Below are positions 2-27,004 of a stretch of DNA of 40,392 nucleotides, one piece after another. Position 1 is the first letter of the stretch, and every line of letters begins with the position of its first letter. The position numbers and the translations under genes were made by a program. Origin of the DNA: Bacteroidia bacterium (GTDB lineage: Bacteria; Bacteroidota; Bacteroidia; UBA4408). Where the stretch lies: the NCBI GenBank assembly GCA_023262495.1, contig JALRAS010000013.1:1-40392 (forward strand). Direction: 5' to 3'. Below the pieces are notes generated by a model. It was not told where the DNA came from. It ran no database searches and saw nothing but the letters and a program-made list of their open reading frames with translations.

Positions 2-616
2 CAGTATCTTGATTTAGGGGGAGGATTTCCAAGTGCCAACACCCTGAAAGGCGCTTACTTACCGGGATCGGATACGGTTCCTCATATTGAAGAGTTTGCT
101 GAAGCTATTGCCAATACCATTTTAGGTTATGGTTTTAAACCCGATGAATTGCCGCTGCTGGTGCTTGAAAGCGGGCGTGCACTGATTGATGATGCCGGTT
201 ATCTTTTAGGCACCGTTTTGGCAAATAAAAGATTAAGTGATGGAAGACGTGCTACTATCATGGATTTTGGCGTGAATATTTTATTTACTTCGTTTTGGTA
301 TGATCATAAAATAAGTCCGGCTCAAGATTTTACCCATCATTCAGAAGATCAGGTATTATATGGTCCACTGTGTATGAATATTGATGTCATCAGAGAAAGT
401 GTAAATTTGCCACTATTGAATAAAGGAGATCAAGTGGTGGTGCATAAAGTTGGCGCTTATAATATGACCCAGTGGATGCAGTTTATTGCCATGCGACCTA
501 ATGTGGTGATGATTGATATGCAAGGAAAAACACATATTATTCGTCAGAAAGAAACGTTGCAATATATGGAGATGCTTGAGCAACTGCCCACACACTTGAA
601 AGACTTCTCGTTATAA
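2..616 (+). CDS. Fold-III PLP-dependent decarboxylase/racemase-like enzyme, C-terminal part
   Basis: The reading frame is open from the window edge, so the start and the PLP-binding lysine lie upstream. Visible are a glycine-rich GGGFP phosphate-binding loop near the left edge, an LESGRALIDDAG segment, a GPLCMNID segment at the place of the CES(G/D) motif of diaminopimelate decarboxylases, and a GAYN motif that normally contributes the PLP-contacting tyrosine. These are hallmarks of alanine-racemase-fold (fold III) PLP decarboxylases such as LysA, SpeA and Y4yA-type enzymes. The substrate cannot be read: CMNID departs from the LysA consensus, so ordinary lysine synthesis is doubtful. It ends 6 bp before a urea-transporter/M23 fusion on the same strand and is probably co-transcribed with it. 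Family assignment is firm; specific activity is unknown. Confidence 0.8.
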   Translation, partial: QYLDLGGGFPSANTLKGAYLPGSDTVPHIEEFAEAIANTILGYGFKPDELPLLVLESGRALIDDAGYLLGTVLANKRLSDGRRATIMDFGVNILFTSFWYDHKISPAQDFTHHSEDQVLYGPLCMNIDVIRESVNLPLLNKGDQVVVHKVGAYNMTQWMQFIAMRPNVVMIDMQGKTHIIRQKETLQYMEMLEQLPTHLKDFSL

Positions 617-622
617 AAATGT

Positions 623-2800
623 ATGTCAATCAAAAAAAGTATTGCACCTATTTTTGAGGGTGTAGTTAATAGCTACTCCATTCTGTTTTTTTCGAACAGC
701 AAGATATTTTCATTGCTGCTGCTGCTCATTAGTTTTTTTAATCCTGTAGCCGGATTATCGGGGCTGATTGCGGCCTTCGCAACTGTTTGTATGGCATTGC
801 TTATGGGTTTTAATCAAAGCAATACTGTATCAGGTGTTTATAGCTTTAATGCGTTGTTGTTTGGAATTGGATTTGGTTCTTTTTTTGAAAGCTCTGCCGT
901 TTTTTATTTTTTATTGATTATTGCTTCACTCCTTACTTTAGTGATATCAGTTAGTTTGAGCGGCCTGCTAGGCAAATATGGTTTACCCTTTTTGTCCATT
1001 CCGTTTATCATCACTTTTTGGATGATTTTATTGGCCACCAAAGAGTTTAACAACCTAGGACTTAGTGAGAGAAACATTTATTGGATTAATGAAATGTATG
1101 CTGTTGGTGGCAAACCCCTGCTGCAGTTACTCAACAACATAGAAAACTTACCCTTCCCAAAATGGCTTTCAACTTATTTTAGGGCCATGAGTGCCATCTT
1201 TTTTCAAGAAAATATGTTGGCCGGCATGTTGTTATCGTTAGGTATTTTGTTGCATTCACGCATTGCTTTTACTTTAAGTTTTATTGGTTTTTTTGGCGCT
1301 TATTTGTTTAATGAGTTTACAGGTGCTTTTCAGGCAGGCATCAATCCTTATCATTTGGGAAGTAATTACATGATGGTTGCAGTGGCTATTGGTGGTTTTT
1401 TTGCCATACCCGGTGTTTACAGTTACCTGTGGGCTTTCTTTAGTATTCCTGTAACCAATATCATGGTGATTGCACTCACAAAGATATTCGGAGTGTTTTT
1501 ACTACCCATCTTCTCTTTACCTTTTTGTTTGATGATTTTGTTGTATCTCTATTTTTTAAAGATGCGCGCGGTGCCCGGCAAATTGGTGTTAACACCCATA
1601 CAACACTACTCTCCCGAAATAAATTTGTATCAATACAAAAACAATATAGAGCGGCTAAAGGATGAGTATTACTTTCGATTTAGTTTACCATTTATTGATC
1701 AGTGGATGGTTACACAAGGATATGAGGGCAGCATAACGCATAAAGATGAATGGAGCAAGGCGCTTGATTTTATGATACTTGATAAGGAGATGAAATCGTA
1801 TGCTGGCCAAGGCCAAACTCTTGATAGTTTTTACTGTTACAATAAGCCGGTGCTTGCTCCTGCAGATGGCTATGTGCAAGAAGTGGTAGATTATATTGAA
1901 GACAATGGCATTGGTGAAATCAACCGCAATCAAAATTGGGGTAATACAATTGTGATCTATCACCTACCGCATTTATACTCCAAACTTTCACATCTGAAAA
2001 AAAATTCAATTATCGTTAAAGCAGGTGAATTTGTGAGGAAAGGACAGGTAATTGCCTACTGCGGAAATTCAGGAAGATCTCCCGAGCCTCATTTACATTT
2101 TCAAATTCAGAGCACACCTTATATTGGAAGCAAAACGTTGGCTTATCCTATTGCCTGTTTCTTTGAAAACAATGGTAAAGAAACATCCTACAAGGTATAT
2201 GCAACACCGCAAGAAGGCACAGTGGTTTCAAATATTGAAGTGAATAAATTATTGCAACAGGCCCTTTCATTTCAGCCCGGATATCGCATACAGATGTGCG
2301 AAAATAATCTAACTGAAACATGGGAGGTCTATACCGATGCCTACAATCAAACTTATATTACTTGCAAAGAAAACAACGCTACTGCTTATTTTGTGAACAA
2401 TGGATCAGTGTTTTATTTTACCAATTATTATGGTAGTAAAGCTGCACTGCTTTATGAATTTTATTTATCGGGATTTAGAATTGTACTGAGCTACATGCCT
2501 CAAATAACAGTTAAAGATGTATATCCTTTAAGTGTAGTAAAGGCCCCGTTCTTCAAATGGATACAAGATTTTGCAGCACCATTTGTGCAATTGATTAAAC
2601 CTGTATACATGCTCAATTACAGCAGTGTAGATGATCAAATTTTCAGCACAGAAATGACTCTTGAAACAAGTATTGAGGTTGATATTTTAGGGCAAAAGAA
2701 GATCAAACGAACAAGTCAGTTACTCATTAAAAACGGGGCTTTGCAACAATTAATTATTACTAAAAACGGAAAGGAGAGAATTTTAAAATGTACAGAATAA
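623..2800 (+). CDS. Urea transporter domain fused to M23 (LytM-type) metallopeptidase domain
   Basis: The 725-residue protein has two parts. Residues ~1-315 are very hydrophobic and follow the urea transporter (UT) family plan of two homologous halves: NPVAGLSGL and GVYSFN (40-76) in the first, and SRIAF, LGSN and GGFF (212-260) in the second. Residues ~355-500 are an M23 zinc endopeptidase domain: H373 with D382 (the spaced H...ALDF form of the HxxxD motif), LSHL with H457, and HLH with H490/H492; all expected zinc and catalytic residues are present. Residues ~510-725 form an unrecognised, probably beta-rich extension. M23 enzymes cut peptidoglycan cross-links; UT proteins are passive channels for urea. 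The fusion suggests an envelope role, but substrate and coupling are inference. It starts 6 bp after the PLP enzyme and overlaps the next gene by 13 bp. Confidence 0.85.
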   Translation: MSIKKSIAPIFEGVVNSYSILFFSNSKIFSLLLLLISFFNPVAGLSGLIAAFATVCMALLMGFNQSNTVSGVYSFNALLFGIGFGSFFESSAVFYFLLIIASLLTLVISVSLSGLLGKYGLPFLSIPFIITFWMILLATKEFNNLGLSERNIYWINEMYAVGGKPLLQLLNNIENLPFPKWLSTYFRAMSAIFFQENMLAGMLLSLGILLHSRIAFTLSFIGFFGAYLFNEFTGAFQAGINPYHLGSNYMMVAVAIGGFFAIPGVYSYLWAFFSIPVTNIMVIALTKIFGVFLLPIFSLPFCLMILLYLYFLKMRAVPGKLVLTPIQHYSPEINLYQYKNNIERLKDEYYFRFSLPFIDQWMVTQGYEGSITHKDEWSKALDFMILDKEMKSYAGQGQTLDSFYCYNKPVLAPADGYVQEVVDYIEDNGIGEINRNQNWGNTIVIYHLPHLYSKLSHLKKNSIIVKAGEFVRKGQVIAYCGNSGRSPEPHLHFQIQSTPYIGSKTLAYPIACFFENNGKETSYKVYATPQEGTVVSNIEVNKLLQQALSFQPGYRIQMCENNLTETWEVYTDAYNQTYITCKENNATAYFVNNGSVFYFTNYYGSKAALLYEFYLSGFRIVLSYMPQITVKDVYPLSVVKAPFFKWIQDFAAPFVQLIKPVYMLNYSSVDDQIFSTEMTLETSIEVDILGQKKIKRTSQLLIKNGALQQLIITKNGKERILKCTE

Positions 2801-3987
2801 TTTTATCGATACTATTCCTTACATGCATAACATTGCCCACAAAAGGTCAATCAATGAGCTATGCTGAAATTGACAGCATCAGCTATCATCAGTATTTGAT
2901 TGGCGACTGGGACGGATTGCTTACAACTATGCGTTTGGCGGAGCACAACAATAGCTTGTATCCTAATTTATTACTGCGAGGTGGCTATGCAGCAATGATG
3001 AAAGGCAATCATAGTTTATCTTTAAAGTATTACCAAAATGTATTGCAATTAAATAGTTATAATGAGGCAGCACTTTATTTTGCAGCATACAACAACATAC
3101 AAATCTCTCGATATGATGCAGCAGTTTATCATGCCAAAAAACTGAGTATCGATAACCGAAACAAACTTGGTTTACAAACAAAAAAATCGGTTGAATTTGC
3201 AGATGCCGAAATCAGCATCAAACCCAATAATGCTGCCTATCGTCAAACGGGAACGTATTTTCGTGCGAGGTTCAATAGCCGCATCAATCACAGATTAAAA
3301 CTCACTTATTGTTTTGCCACCTATCGACAAAATTTTCTTGAACCGATTCCTCCTCCACCGGGTCCATTTAGAAATCCTAATCCTGCGTTAAGAACATTGG
3401 CTGTTGGCGATTTACAAGGTTATCTCAAATCTGAATACTACATCAATGCTAAACTTTCACTCACCAATGCACTGCATATTGCCAATACTAATTTTGACAA
3501 TAATCAATATCGAACAGCTATTTTTCATGCCGGCATTAAATATATGATGCCATCGGCAGATGTGAGGTTAGAAATTAATGCAGGGCCTTTACTTGATTCC
3601 TTGATTAGCCAACTGGCTATTTCTTCCACTTATTATCCTTTAGGCAATTTGAATTTTTATGGCAATAGCAGATTGAGTTATCAAAAAAGAACTAACTTAT
3701 CGCATTTAAATTGGTATCAAATGATTGGTTTTAAACTGCATAAAAAAGTATGGTTAGAGGTGCATGGCACTGTAGGAGAAATTAAGAATTTAATCGACCA
3801 TGAATCACTTTATATTTACGATGCCCTAGACCCTGGTAAGTACAGGATTGGCAGTTCCATTTTGATTCCCTTTAATACAAGGTTTACCCTAAATACAAAT
3901 TACTTTTATGAAAAAAAATATTTAACTCCTCAAAACACAAACTATCACTTACATTCACTAACATTAGGATTTACATGGAAAATTTAA
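2788..3987 (+). CDS. TPR protein with C-terminal outer-membrane beta-barrel-like region
   Basis: This 399-residue protein begins with a signal peptide (cleavage probably after TKGQ, about residue 21). Residues ~55-130 contain tetratricopeptide-like helices (GGYAAMMKGNHSLSLKYYQ, AALYFAAYNNIQISRYDAA). From ~145 to the end the sequence alternates polar and aromatic residues and finishes LGFTWKI, as outer-membrane beta-barrels do. The arrangement resembles YaiO-type outer-membrane proteins, but I cannot confirm that family. The start lies 13 bp inside the urea-transporter/M23 gene and its end overlaps the next TPR gene by 13 bp, so translation is probably coupled. It could be the outer-membrane partner of the upstream membrane protein. 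Function is otherwise unknown. Confidence 0.7.
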   Translation: MYRIILSILFLTCITLPTKGQSMSYAEIDSISYHQYLIGDWDGLLTTMRLAEHNNSLYPNLLLRGGYAAMMKGNHSLSLKYYQNVLQLNSYNEAALYFAAYNNIQISRYDAAVYHAKKLSIDNRNKLGLQTKKSVEFADAEISIKPNNAAYRQTGTYFRARFNSRINHRLKLTYCFATYRQNFLEPIPPPPGPFRNPNPALRTLAVGDLQGYLKSEYYINAKLSLTNALHIANTNFDNNQYRTAIFHAGIKYMMPSADVRLEINAGPLLDSLISQLAISSTYYPLGNLNFYGNSRLSYQKRTNLSHLNWYQMIGFKLHKKVWLEVHGTVGEIKNLIDHESLYIYDALDPGKYRIGSSILIPFNTRFTLNTNYFYEKKYLTPQNTNYHLHSLTLGFTWKI

Positions 3988-4595
3988 AGCAACTTTTATT
4001 GGCAGCATCATTTATGGTATTAAGCTTGATGGCTAAGGCACAATCAGATGCAATTATTCAGAAAGCATTTGCAGCTAGTTATAGCGCAGAAAGCAAGTAC
4101 AATTACAACGAGGCCATTGCCACAATCAATAACATTTATGCCGAGCAAAATTACGAGATGAACCTAAGGTTAGGTTGGCTCTATTATTTAAGTAAAAACT
4201 ATACCTCATCTATTAAATTTTATGAAAAGGCCACCACCATCAGACCATACGCAATTGAGGCAAAATTGGGATTAATAAAACCATTGGCCGATACCGAAAG
4301 TTGGGACAAGGTAATCAAGCAGTATGAAACTATATTGAGTATTGATCCCCAAAATACCACTGCTAATTATTATTTAGGTTATGCGCTTTATACCAGAAAG
4401 CAGTATGATGCAGCAGCCAAATATTTCGAAAAGGTTGTGAACTTATATCCTTTTGATTACAACAGCAATTTAATGTTAGGTTGGACTTATTACAGACTTG
4501 GCAAAAACAATGAGGCGAAGGTACTTTTTAATAAAGTATTGCTCATCAGTCCTGCCGATGCTTCGGCTGTAGAAGGCCTATCATTGATTAAATAA
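3975..4595 (+). CDS. Secreted tetratricopeptide-repeat protein
   Basis: The 206-residue protein has a signal peptide ending in AKAQ (about residue 23) followed by four to five TPR units covering nearly all the mature protein (NLRLGWLYYLSKNYTSSIKF, NYYLGYALYTRKQYDAAAKY, NLMLGWTYYRLGKNNEA). It should be a periplasmic helical scaffold for protein-protein contacts. It is the last gene of the plus-strand cluster, overlapping the barrel protein by 13 bp. No terminator hairpin with a T-run follows directly; instead an intergenic repeat zone starts about 100 bp downstream. The TPR assignment is clear, the partner unknown. Confidence 0.8.
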   Translation: MENLKQLLLAASFMVLSLMAKAQSDAIIQKAFAASYSAESKYNYNEAIATINNIYAEQNYEMNLRLGWLYYLSKNYTSSIKFYEKATTIRPYAIEAKLGLIKPLADTESWDKVIKQYETILSIDPQNTTANYYLGYALYTRKQYDAAAKYFEKVVNLYPFDYNSNLMLGWTYYRLGKNNEAKVLFNKVLLISPADASAVEGLSLIK

Positions 4596-9476: not shown

Positions 9477-10088
9477 ATGAATAGGTTTTATGCATTTACT
9501 TTTTTTTTAGGCTTCTATTTTTTGAGACCTATGCATGTTGATGCCCAAAATATATCTAAGGAACTATCGGAATCGCCTCATAAAGTTTACACCTCTATTG
9601 AGCAAGCCATGCAAGCGCCCGACAGTGTGCGTTATTTGAGTTTGCGTCATCAAAAACTAAAGCAACTTCCGGCTGAGATTTTTACTTTCACGAACTTAGA
9701 AATTCTCGACCTCAGCAAAAATAAATTGACAGAACTACCTGCTGAAATTGAGAAGCTCAGCCAACTGCGTGAGGTCAACGTGTCCAATAACAAGCTCACG
9801 AGTTTACCCATTCAATTAGGAAATTTAACTCGACTAGAGAAAATTTTGGCATATCAAAACAACATTGCCATTTTACCCACCACTATTGGCAATTTGGTTA
9901 ATTTAGAGCTGCTTGATTTATGGAGCAACGAAATTGAAACCTTTCCTGAAGAAATCAGCGAGCTTAAAAAGCTTAAGTATGTTGATTTAAGAGGAATCAT
10001 GATGACTGATGAGCAAAAATCTTCAATTAGGTCATTACTGCCCAAAACCGAAATCATGTTTTCTGCCGGTTGTAACTGTTTAAAGTAA
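9477..10088 (+). CDS. Secreted leucine-rich-repeat protein
   Basis: The 203-residue protein starts at the base after the ribF stop, so it is probably co-transcribed. A signal peptide ends at VDAQ (about residue 24). Residues ~50-175 hold about five LRR units of the form LxxLPxEIxxLxxLxxLxLxxNxL (for example LEILDLSKNKLTELPAEIEK). The C-terminus CNCLK has two cysteines. LRR proteins of this type are binding scaffolds, here periplasmic or surface located. There is no obvious functional link to flavin synthesis. Confidence 0.8.
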   Translation: MNRFYAFTFFLGFYFLRPMHVDAQNISKELSESPHKVYTSIEQAMQAPDSVRYLSLRHQKLKQLPAEIFTFTNLEILDLSKNKLTELPAEIEKLSQLREVNVSNNKLTSLPIQLGNLTRLEKILAYQNNIAILPTTIGNLVNLELLDLWSNEIETFPEEISELKKLKYVDLRGIMMTDEQKSSIRSLLPKTEIMFSAGCNCLK

Positions 10089-10154
10089 TTGCGGTGCCGA
10101 CATACCACATTTTATATTGTCTCTGTATAGGGCTCATCGTGGTATTTTAGTAGC

Positions 10155-10280
10155 GATTACACTTTCAATTTATTCCAATTGCGGCCAAGCCTTATTGTAA
10201 CAGCTTAAAGAAGTATCGGTATAAAACATTATAAATTTATTAAACAGCTTTGAGCTATTTAATAAATACAATTGGTATAA
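10155..10280 (+). repeat. Dispersed intergenic hairpin repeat, copy 2
   Basis: Homologous to 4710-4833. The stem ATTTATTAAA (10235-10244) pairs with 10258-10267; a C/A mismatch and an inner AGCT/AGCT pair with a TTG loop continue the hairpin. The gap 10089-10371 also contains an ATACCAC...GTGGTAT inverted repeat before this copy and the nonamer ATGCGGAAT at 10323-10331. No gene was seen in the gap. Confidence 0.65.
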
Positions 10281-25942: not shown

Positions 25943-27004
25943 TCAGTTTTGGGGTAATCGTGCTTCATTACTTTTTGAAACCAAATTGCAAATTCGATAG
26001 AGCAACCTGCTGCTTACGTTGGCATCCCATGCTCCATTCCCCGTTTCATTCAAATCAAATGCAATTATTTTTCTACCACTTTGTACTACCTTTTCGAGTA
26101 AATATAGCACCTCGTCAGTCTCAAACCCACCTGCAACTGGTGTTCCGGTATTAGGACATAATTTTGGATCTAAAGCATCAGCATCAAAACTCAGGTAAAC
26201 GTGCTGTGGTAACTCGTTAACAATATCGTTGAAAATAGCTGCAGTAGTTTTTCCGTGCATCCTTGCTTGCTTAATATCTCTGTCGAAAAATGTAACAACC
26301 TTGCCCTTCGAATTATTGATATAGTTTACTTCTTCTTCACAATAATCGCGTATGCCAACTTGCACAAGCTTGCTAACCTGCGGCAATTGCATGGCATTGT
26401 ACATAATGCTTGCGTGCGAATAGGTGAATCCTTCATAGGCGTTTCTCAAATCACAATGAGCATCTAATTGTAAGATACCAAAGTCTTGATGATGCTTACA
26501 CAAGGCCTGAATAATACCTAACGGTGTGCTATGATCACCTCCGACCCCGCCAATTATTTTGCCTGCACTCAAAACTTCCTCCGTGTAACGCTTTACATCT
26601 TCATTAAATTGTGCACTTCCATCATTAACCTCCTTGTAAAGTGCCTCCATTTGCGCAGGTGTTTCGCTTGCATGAGCAGATGTAAGGTTCGATATGATCT
26701 GAACCGCTTTACTTCTCAGATGCTGACTTTGTTTTTGCCAATCTTGATTGGGTTCATCCATGTAAATACCAATTTTCCATGCATCTTTTATGTATGGATC
26801 ATATAAGTCAACCTGATGAGAAGCCTCAAAAATAAGATCGGGAGCATTGGCTGTTCCTGCACTAAATGACACTGTAACCTCCCAAGGCAATGGCAGCAAT
26901 ATGATGTCTGCTTCCTCTTTGTTGAATGGCAATCCAAAGATATTGCTATCCTCCGTGGCTGGATTATTAGGATTAAATTGTTTTATTTTTTCTTCCTTTG
27001 ACAT
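25943..27004 (-). CDS. Arginase/agmatinase/formimidoylglutamase-family ureohydrolase
   Basis: The 353-residue sequence has the binuclear manganese motifs of ureohydrolases: GGVGGDHSTP (first histidine ligand), QLDAHCDLR (Asp-His-Asp) and SFDADALDPKLCPNTGTP (paired aspartates plus substrate loop). DADALDP has Ala where many relatives have Val, a mild change. Family members hydrolyse arginine, agmatine, formimidoylglutamate or related guanidino compounds, releasing urea or formamide. The substrate cannot be assigned; no his-utilisation or arginine genes are adjacent. A TACATTTG element (27031-27024) lies 20 bp upstream. Stand-alone gene. Confidence 0.85.
   Translation of the reverse strand: MSKEEKIKQFNPNNPATEDSNIFGLPFNKEEADIILLPLPWEVTVSFSAGTANAPDLIFEASHQVDLYDPYIKDAWKIGIYMDEPNQDWQKQSQHLRSKAVQIISNLTSAHASETPAQMEALYKEVNDGSAQFNEDVKRYTEEVLSAGKIIGGVGGDHSTPLGIIQALCKHHQDFGILQLDAHCDLRNAYEGFTYSHASIMYNAMQLPQVSKLVQVGIRDYCEEEVNYINNSKGKVVTFFDRDIKQARMHGKTTAAIFNDIVNELPQHVYLSFDADALDPKLCPNTGTPVAGGFETDEVLYLLEKVVQSGRKIIAFDLNETGNGAWDANVSSRLLYRICNLVSKSNEARLPQN

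Follow-up and report, generated by a model that had tools for sequence, protein, structure and literature searches.

The four genes at the start of the window (the whole stretch of 40,392 nucleotides from a Bacteroidia bacterium that was analysed) belong to one conserved operon of the Bacteroidota, of which the window holds the 3' part. We propose, with a probability of about 0.45, that this operon encodes a pathway in which an ATP-grasp ligase and a PLP decarboxylase are scaffolded by an RRE, the product is released by an M23 peptidase domain at the mouth of a urea transporter (UT) channel, and the channel together with barrel and TPR proteins forms the exit route. The features concerned are the following:

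2-616, forward strand: fold-III PLP decarboxylase of the FslC/BtrK/LysA superfamily with a GPLCMNID motif; the contig edge truncates the gene and leaves the last 204 residues
623-2800, forward strand: UT-M23 fusion protein, 725 aa
659-1555, forward strand: UT channel domain with 10 predicted membrane helices (Pfam, profile against PDB)
1685-2167, forward strand: M23 metallopeptidase domain, about residues 355-515, predicted cytoplasmic (H373, D382, H457, H490, H492)
2168-2797, forward strand: about 210 residues at the C-terminus of the fusion, a domain matched neither by Pfam above cut-off nor in a profile search against PDB
2788-3987, forward strand: secreted TPR and outer-membrane-barrel-like protein (family c5)
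3975-4595, forward strand: secreted TPR protein (family c3; Pfam TPR)
Contig C6 of the same genome (G000), 9501-10211 (locus L111): N-terminus of the decarboxylase, 237 codons, with a YESPVI..G tail

The open reading frames (2-616, which is open at its 5' end, 623-2800, 2788-3987 and 3975-4595) form the array that an earlier note on this DNA had described, with a 6-bp gap between the first two and overlaps of 13 bp between the second and third and between the third and fourth. The domains it had named hold as well: Pfam detects an Orn/DAP/Arg decarboxylase C-terminal domain in the product of 2-616 (9e-12), UT (3e-50, residues 13-311) and Peptidase_M23 (1e-16, residues 403-497) in the 725-aa protein and TPR in the 206-aa protein (1e-20), the TPR match of the 399-aa protein being weak. 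Since the window starts at base 1 of contig C44 and its left edge is thus a contig end, the PLP gene is truncated. A search with the decarboxylase of a relative showed that contig C6 ends in the missing half; this contig encodes in series a PqqD-like protein, an ATP-grasp ligase and the N-terminal part of the decarboxylase, MSKLKYESPVIKKMNAGLMNKFG; the join between C6 and the window is based on the gene order in relatives. The ATP-grasp ligase that had been named as a telling find to the left of the window is therefore present upstream.

In a survey of 395 Bacteroidota genomes, 45 gave a UT match, and of these 33 carry a long single-frame UT-M23 fusion (>500 aa) and one (G005) carries it in two adjacent frames. 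An ATP-grasp ligase of the operon type (E <= 1e-45) is found in 34 of the 395 genomes, which, on comparison of the two lists by hand, are the identical 34 that carry the fusion. The order PqqD, ATP-grasp, PLP, UT-M23, barrel and/or TPR is kept in nearly all surveyed loci, with intergenic gaps that are short or overlapping (mostly <50 bp), and the distances of the operon proteins co-vary between members (Spearman 0.62-0.86). Thus the UT-M23 architecture exists elsewhere, and its PLP and TPR neighbours accompany it in practically all relatives whose contigs reach far enough. Among the neighbouring genes, the recurrent families that we identified comprise PqqD, ATP-grasp, PLP, UT-M23, barrel and TPR, plus a GNAT family in four loci. 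The system is widespread, occurring in about 9% of the sampled Bacteroidota genomes and in many families; no relative of the operon ATP-grasp ligase was found in the plasmid collection. One 8054-bp contig present in two collections (L004 and L101), in genome G396 and in a MAG titled Chitinophaga pinensis, entered the neighbourhood survey once.

Some further observations were made at these loci. In the four loci with a GNAT acetyltransferase, which are related (L006:4704-5210, L008:420-920, L010:4200-4718 and L099:5700-6203), the gene lies ahead of that for PqqD and possibly encodes an optional tailoring enzyme. Proteins of cluster c7, encoded near the operon in 17 loci (e.g. L088:2856-3698), have a C-terminal end resembling a type IX secretion sorting domain and are probably common surface proteins that were clustered through that domain. 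In genome G124 a single contig carries the operon at its end (L070) and a second copy at its start (L107:1-1177) with identical ATP-grasp match scores; the two copies may represent the overlapping ends of a circular chromosome that was not closed, one of them containing errors.

Because one-frame copies exist in about 33 of the 395 genomes, the union of UT and M23 in one chain, which the earlier note had seen in the sequence, is not a sequencing artefact. Only two copies are split (L105:8944-11198 and L009:259-2450), and both are broken inside or beside homopolymer runs of the linker, so that they are probably sequencing errors and were uninformative as a test of topology. The fusion contains a complete two-repeat UT domain (PF03253), which aligns over its full length with DvUT (3k3f/3me1) and human UT-A (8blo) in profile comparisons against PDB (1e-50 to 1e-67). 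Residues that are invariant in standalone UTs are partly changed in the fusion: the conserved Gln of the first repeat (position 24) is Ser in 32 of 39 fusions, and the invariant Thr at position 125 is Ser in 36 of 39. In the M23 domain (PF01551) the five active-site residues claimed for it are all intact, H373, D382, H457, H490 and H492 being invariant in 39/39 aligned fusions. The C-terminal domain is missing from one relative (L076, 532 aa) and is possibly an unnamed domain.

UT pores admit very small molecules only, which limits the products that could be exported. Simple urea nutrition is unlikely, since, counting strong matches, 1 of 37 fusion genomes has a urease, as against 6 of 10 genomes with a standalone UT; weak matches in five fusion genomes (E about 1e-4 to 1e-5) were taken as other amidohydrolases because they score 23-25 bits compared with 180-199 for true urease. 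Some members of the arginase/agmatinase family release urea, and the window encodes a protein resembling this family at 25943-27004 (judged by eye), for which no link to the operon has been shown. The channel might instead import urea, ammonia or a small amide as nitrogen donor for the ATP-grasp ligase, with a regulatory or processing role for the M23 domain. The ligase, whose EINPR and related motifs are intact, is indeed closest, at a distant relationship, to the carbamoyl-phosphate-synthase-like proteins of PRK12767, and UTs also conduct ammonia (PMC12171576). However, the near absence of urease speaks against import, which would moreover leave the secreted barrel and TPR proteins and the M23 domain unexplained, and we regard it as distinctly unlikely.

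On which side of the membrane, then, does the M23 domain lie? UT channels have 10 helices with both ends in the cytoplasm. Under a ten-helix model with both termini inside, in which the loop boundaries were drawn by hand on the basis of hydropathy, the predicted cytoplasmic loops of the fusion contain 0.145 Lys+Arg per residue and the other loops 0.046, and all 39 members agree. The M23 and C-terminal part contains 1.08% cysteine, about five times the content of the exported partners (TPR protein 0.26%, barrel families 0.11-0.22%) and of 13 other M23 proteins from the window's family (0.20%). No signal sequence was found in the linker between UT and M23, and in UT-A1 an intracellular loop joins the two UT units (PMC12171576). 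The AlphaFold model of the whole fusion, for which six sequences were allowed, was poor, with a mean pLDDT of 51, and was left out. Loop charge, the full-length UT alignment and cysteine content together make a cytoplasmic M23 domain most likely. The first reading of this DNA had tied cell-wall cutting to a small amine or urea-like molecule, which would mean a periplasmic domain that edits peptidoglycan in coupling with a urea-like molecule passing the UT. Such a role would suit the intact catalytic residues, the secreted barrel and TPR partners and the fact that M23 enzymes normally are wall hydrolases, but it conflicts with the positive-inside charges in 39/39 members, with the full alignment to a channel of even helix number, with the high cysteine content and with a linker lacking a signal sequence. 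We therefore consider it decidedly improbable; with M23 predicted to be cytoplasmic, wall cutting is unlikely. To our knowledge M23 enzymes are extracytoplasmic, and a cytoplasmic one would be unusual in itself.

The decarboxylase likewise gives no support to a function in wall modification, which had been suggested for it. The nearest solved decarboxylases are FslC (2e-55) and BtrK (2e-28), and it carries GPLCMNID in 38 of 40 members in place of the GPxCE[ST]xD motif of LysA. The possibility that it is the cell's LysA was rejected: besides lacking that motif it scores about 211-227 bits with TIGR01048, below the cut-off of 298, and a separate LysA above the cut-off is found in most operon hosts with LysA matches listed, a few, among them the genome of the window, being without one. 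FslC decarboxylates N-citrylornithine, and a metallophore pathway akin to that of rhizoferrin, with an FslC-type decarboxylase and its own exporter, would account for the closest solved enzyme and the shared GPxCM motif. Yet neither an NIS synthetase nor a TonB receptor is among the recurrent neighbour families identified at the loci, and a citrate amide would be too large and too charged for the UT pore, which makes this explanation very improbable indeed.

The feature that connects the decarboxylase with the PqqD-like protein is its N-terminus. All 40 full-length decarboxylases have an extension of about 30 residues ahead of the LysA-homologous part, and all 40, Phe variants counted, carry in it the motif [YF][ET][RKSG]Px[ILV], with Y possible at the last place, which runs on into a conserved G..NKFG-like stretch (G[LM]MNKFG). 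In ten out of ten true LysA proteins of this phylum, of which nine come from hosts of the operon, the N-terminus lacks the motif; one of the ten has a fortuitous match well ahead of any plausible start. Lasso and PQQ RREs recognise sequences of this YxxP type (PMC12710340, PMC13381572). The PqqD-like protein matches Pfam PqqD at 1e-12 to 2e-15, and its AlphaFold model (pLDDT 90) superimposes on TbiB1 with a TM score of 0.88; the PDB matches of the model below E 0.001 are six, all of them lasso RREs with leader peptide (TbiB1 5v1u/5v1v, 6jx3). In LppB the YxxP sequence is contacted by N33, D70 and F74 (PMC13381572), whose counterparts in the operon RRE, by our own mapping of positions in the fold, are N26, D63 and F67, conserved as N in 36/36, D in 31/36 and F in 33/36 members. 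Among 64 distinct loci a tail Tyr (44 loci) is paired in the RRE with Asp (43) or Asn (1) and a tail Phe (20 loci) with Tyr (18), His (1) or Phe (1), with zero exceptions. The hydrogen bond between Asp and Tyr is impossible for Phe. The loci with a Phe tail group in a single clade, possibly with one reversal, and because the tree needs only one or two tail changes the pairing is suggestive and not a statistical proof. From motif, contact residues and model we have good grounds to suggest that the RRE docks on the decarboxylase tail.

Could the tail itself be the peptide that is modified? A RiPP-like fusion of precursor and enzyme, as in the borosins, would have the ATP-grasp ligase modify MNKFG and the M23 domain free it. 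The conserved G[LM]MNKFG stretch directly after the motif, the combination of RRE and ATP-grasp, which is a usual RiPP pair, the apparently cytoplasmic M23 domain and the want of a separate precursor ORF would all suit this idea; when the loci were scanned for a recurrent small ORF with the tail motif, none was found, and the motif recurs in the decarboxylase only. Against it, the residues behind the motif form a short stretch and no variable core, a fully conserved decarboxylase body would be a strange leader, and the UT pore is too small for a peptide. We therefore think it unlikely that the tail is the product.

We thus favour the RRE-scaffolded pathway ending at the channel. The RRE would grip the YERPxI...G tail at the decarboxylase N-terminus as lasso RREs grip their leader peptides, and this docking would either hold ligase and decarboxylase together or offer the tail as acceptor to the ligase. 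The ATP-grasp enzyme would join an amino acid via an amide bond, and the decarboxylase would remove the alpha-carboxyl group from the bound substrate, in the way that N-citrylornithine is decarboxylated by FslC and glutamyl-ACP by BtrK. Next, the M23 domain, anchored to the UT on its cytoplasmic side, would hydrolyse an amide or peptide bond and thereby set free a small amine or amide where the channel opens, the UT would pass it into the periplasm, and barrel and TPR proteins would carry it onward and outward. We infer the substrate and the order of these reactions, and we put forward their chemistry and the direction of transport tentatively; the UT might just as well bring in urea or ammonia to serve as substrate. 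An export role across the envelope is reasonable for the barrel and TPR proteins. The 399-aa protein is related by profile comparison to the TPR protein in its N-terminal part and to two other barrel-like families in its C-terminal part, and the barrel-like families (c5, c6 and c21), which are distantly related, replace each other between lineages, while TPR family c3 is present in 36 surveyed loci. Of the envelope system for a small amine or urea-like molecule that the earlier note had envisaged, the conserved system stands and amine chemistry and export are reasonable, whereas the cutting of the wall is not supported.

Our literature search did not find this system described; it returned no urea transporter paper with ATP-grasp or PqqD and no report of a urea transporter with peptidase M23 for Bacteroidetes. 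We consider it possible, if somewhat doubtful, that this is an RRE system with no separate precursor, in which an RRE binds a leader-tagged enzyme to a partner ligase and a cytoplasmic M23 domain releases the product into the pore of its own channel; the operon would then encode a biosynthesis-and-export machine of a previously undescribed kind. The presence of an RRE is taken to mark a peptide natural product; if this one binds an enzyme tag, genome-mining tools will misread such loci, and the tag represents a new way of assembling a metabolic complex. Both M23 peptidases and UT channels would have broader roles than those known, should the M23 domain on this urea-type channel indeed be cytoplasmic.

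Each part of the operon comes from a known family, but in at least one defining feature the set departs, or may depart, from every known system with which we compared it. Like DvUT, UT-A and UT-B, the fusion has a full 10-helix UT channel domain; different from them, it adds a C-terminal M23 domain and an unmatched domain and has no urease link. It shares all five zinc and catalytic residues with the M23 peptidases ShyA, lysostaphin and TagE, but its first motif is spaced (H...W..A.DF) and its M23 domain is predicted to be cytoplasmic and is tied to a channel. With RRE-dependent RiPP clusters the operon has in common a PqqD-fold RRE and a YxxP-type sequence, while a separate precursor gene is absent from the loci. 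The lasso pairs TbiB1-TbiA and FusB1-FusA resemble it in the stand-alone PqqD-fold RRE, the contact residues and the YxxPxI...G partner. In the operon, however, this motif lies at the N-terminus of a 450-aa decarboxylase and not on a precursor peptide, and neither the B2 protease nor the asparagine-synthetase-like cyclase of lasso clusters is among the recurrent neighbour families identified. FslC (7kh2), the N-citrylornithine decarboxylase that is the closest solved structure, has the GPxCM motif in common with the operon enzyme, which in turn possesses the additional YxxP tail; an FslA-type NIS synthetase does not recur in the loci. Finally, in butirosin biosynthesis the ATP-grasp ligase BtrJ and the fold-III PLP decarboxylase BtrK, a clear homologue of the operon enzyme, work on a carrier. 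The operon has the same pairing of ligase and decarboxylase, but in place of an acyl-carrier protein it has the RRE and the tail, and it adds membrane and secreted partners.
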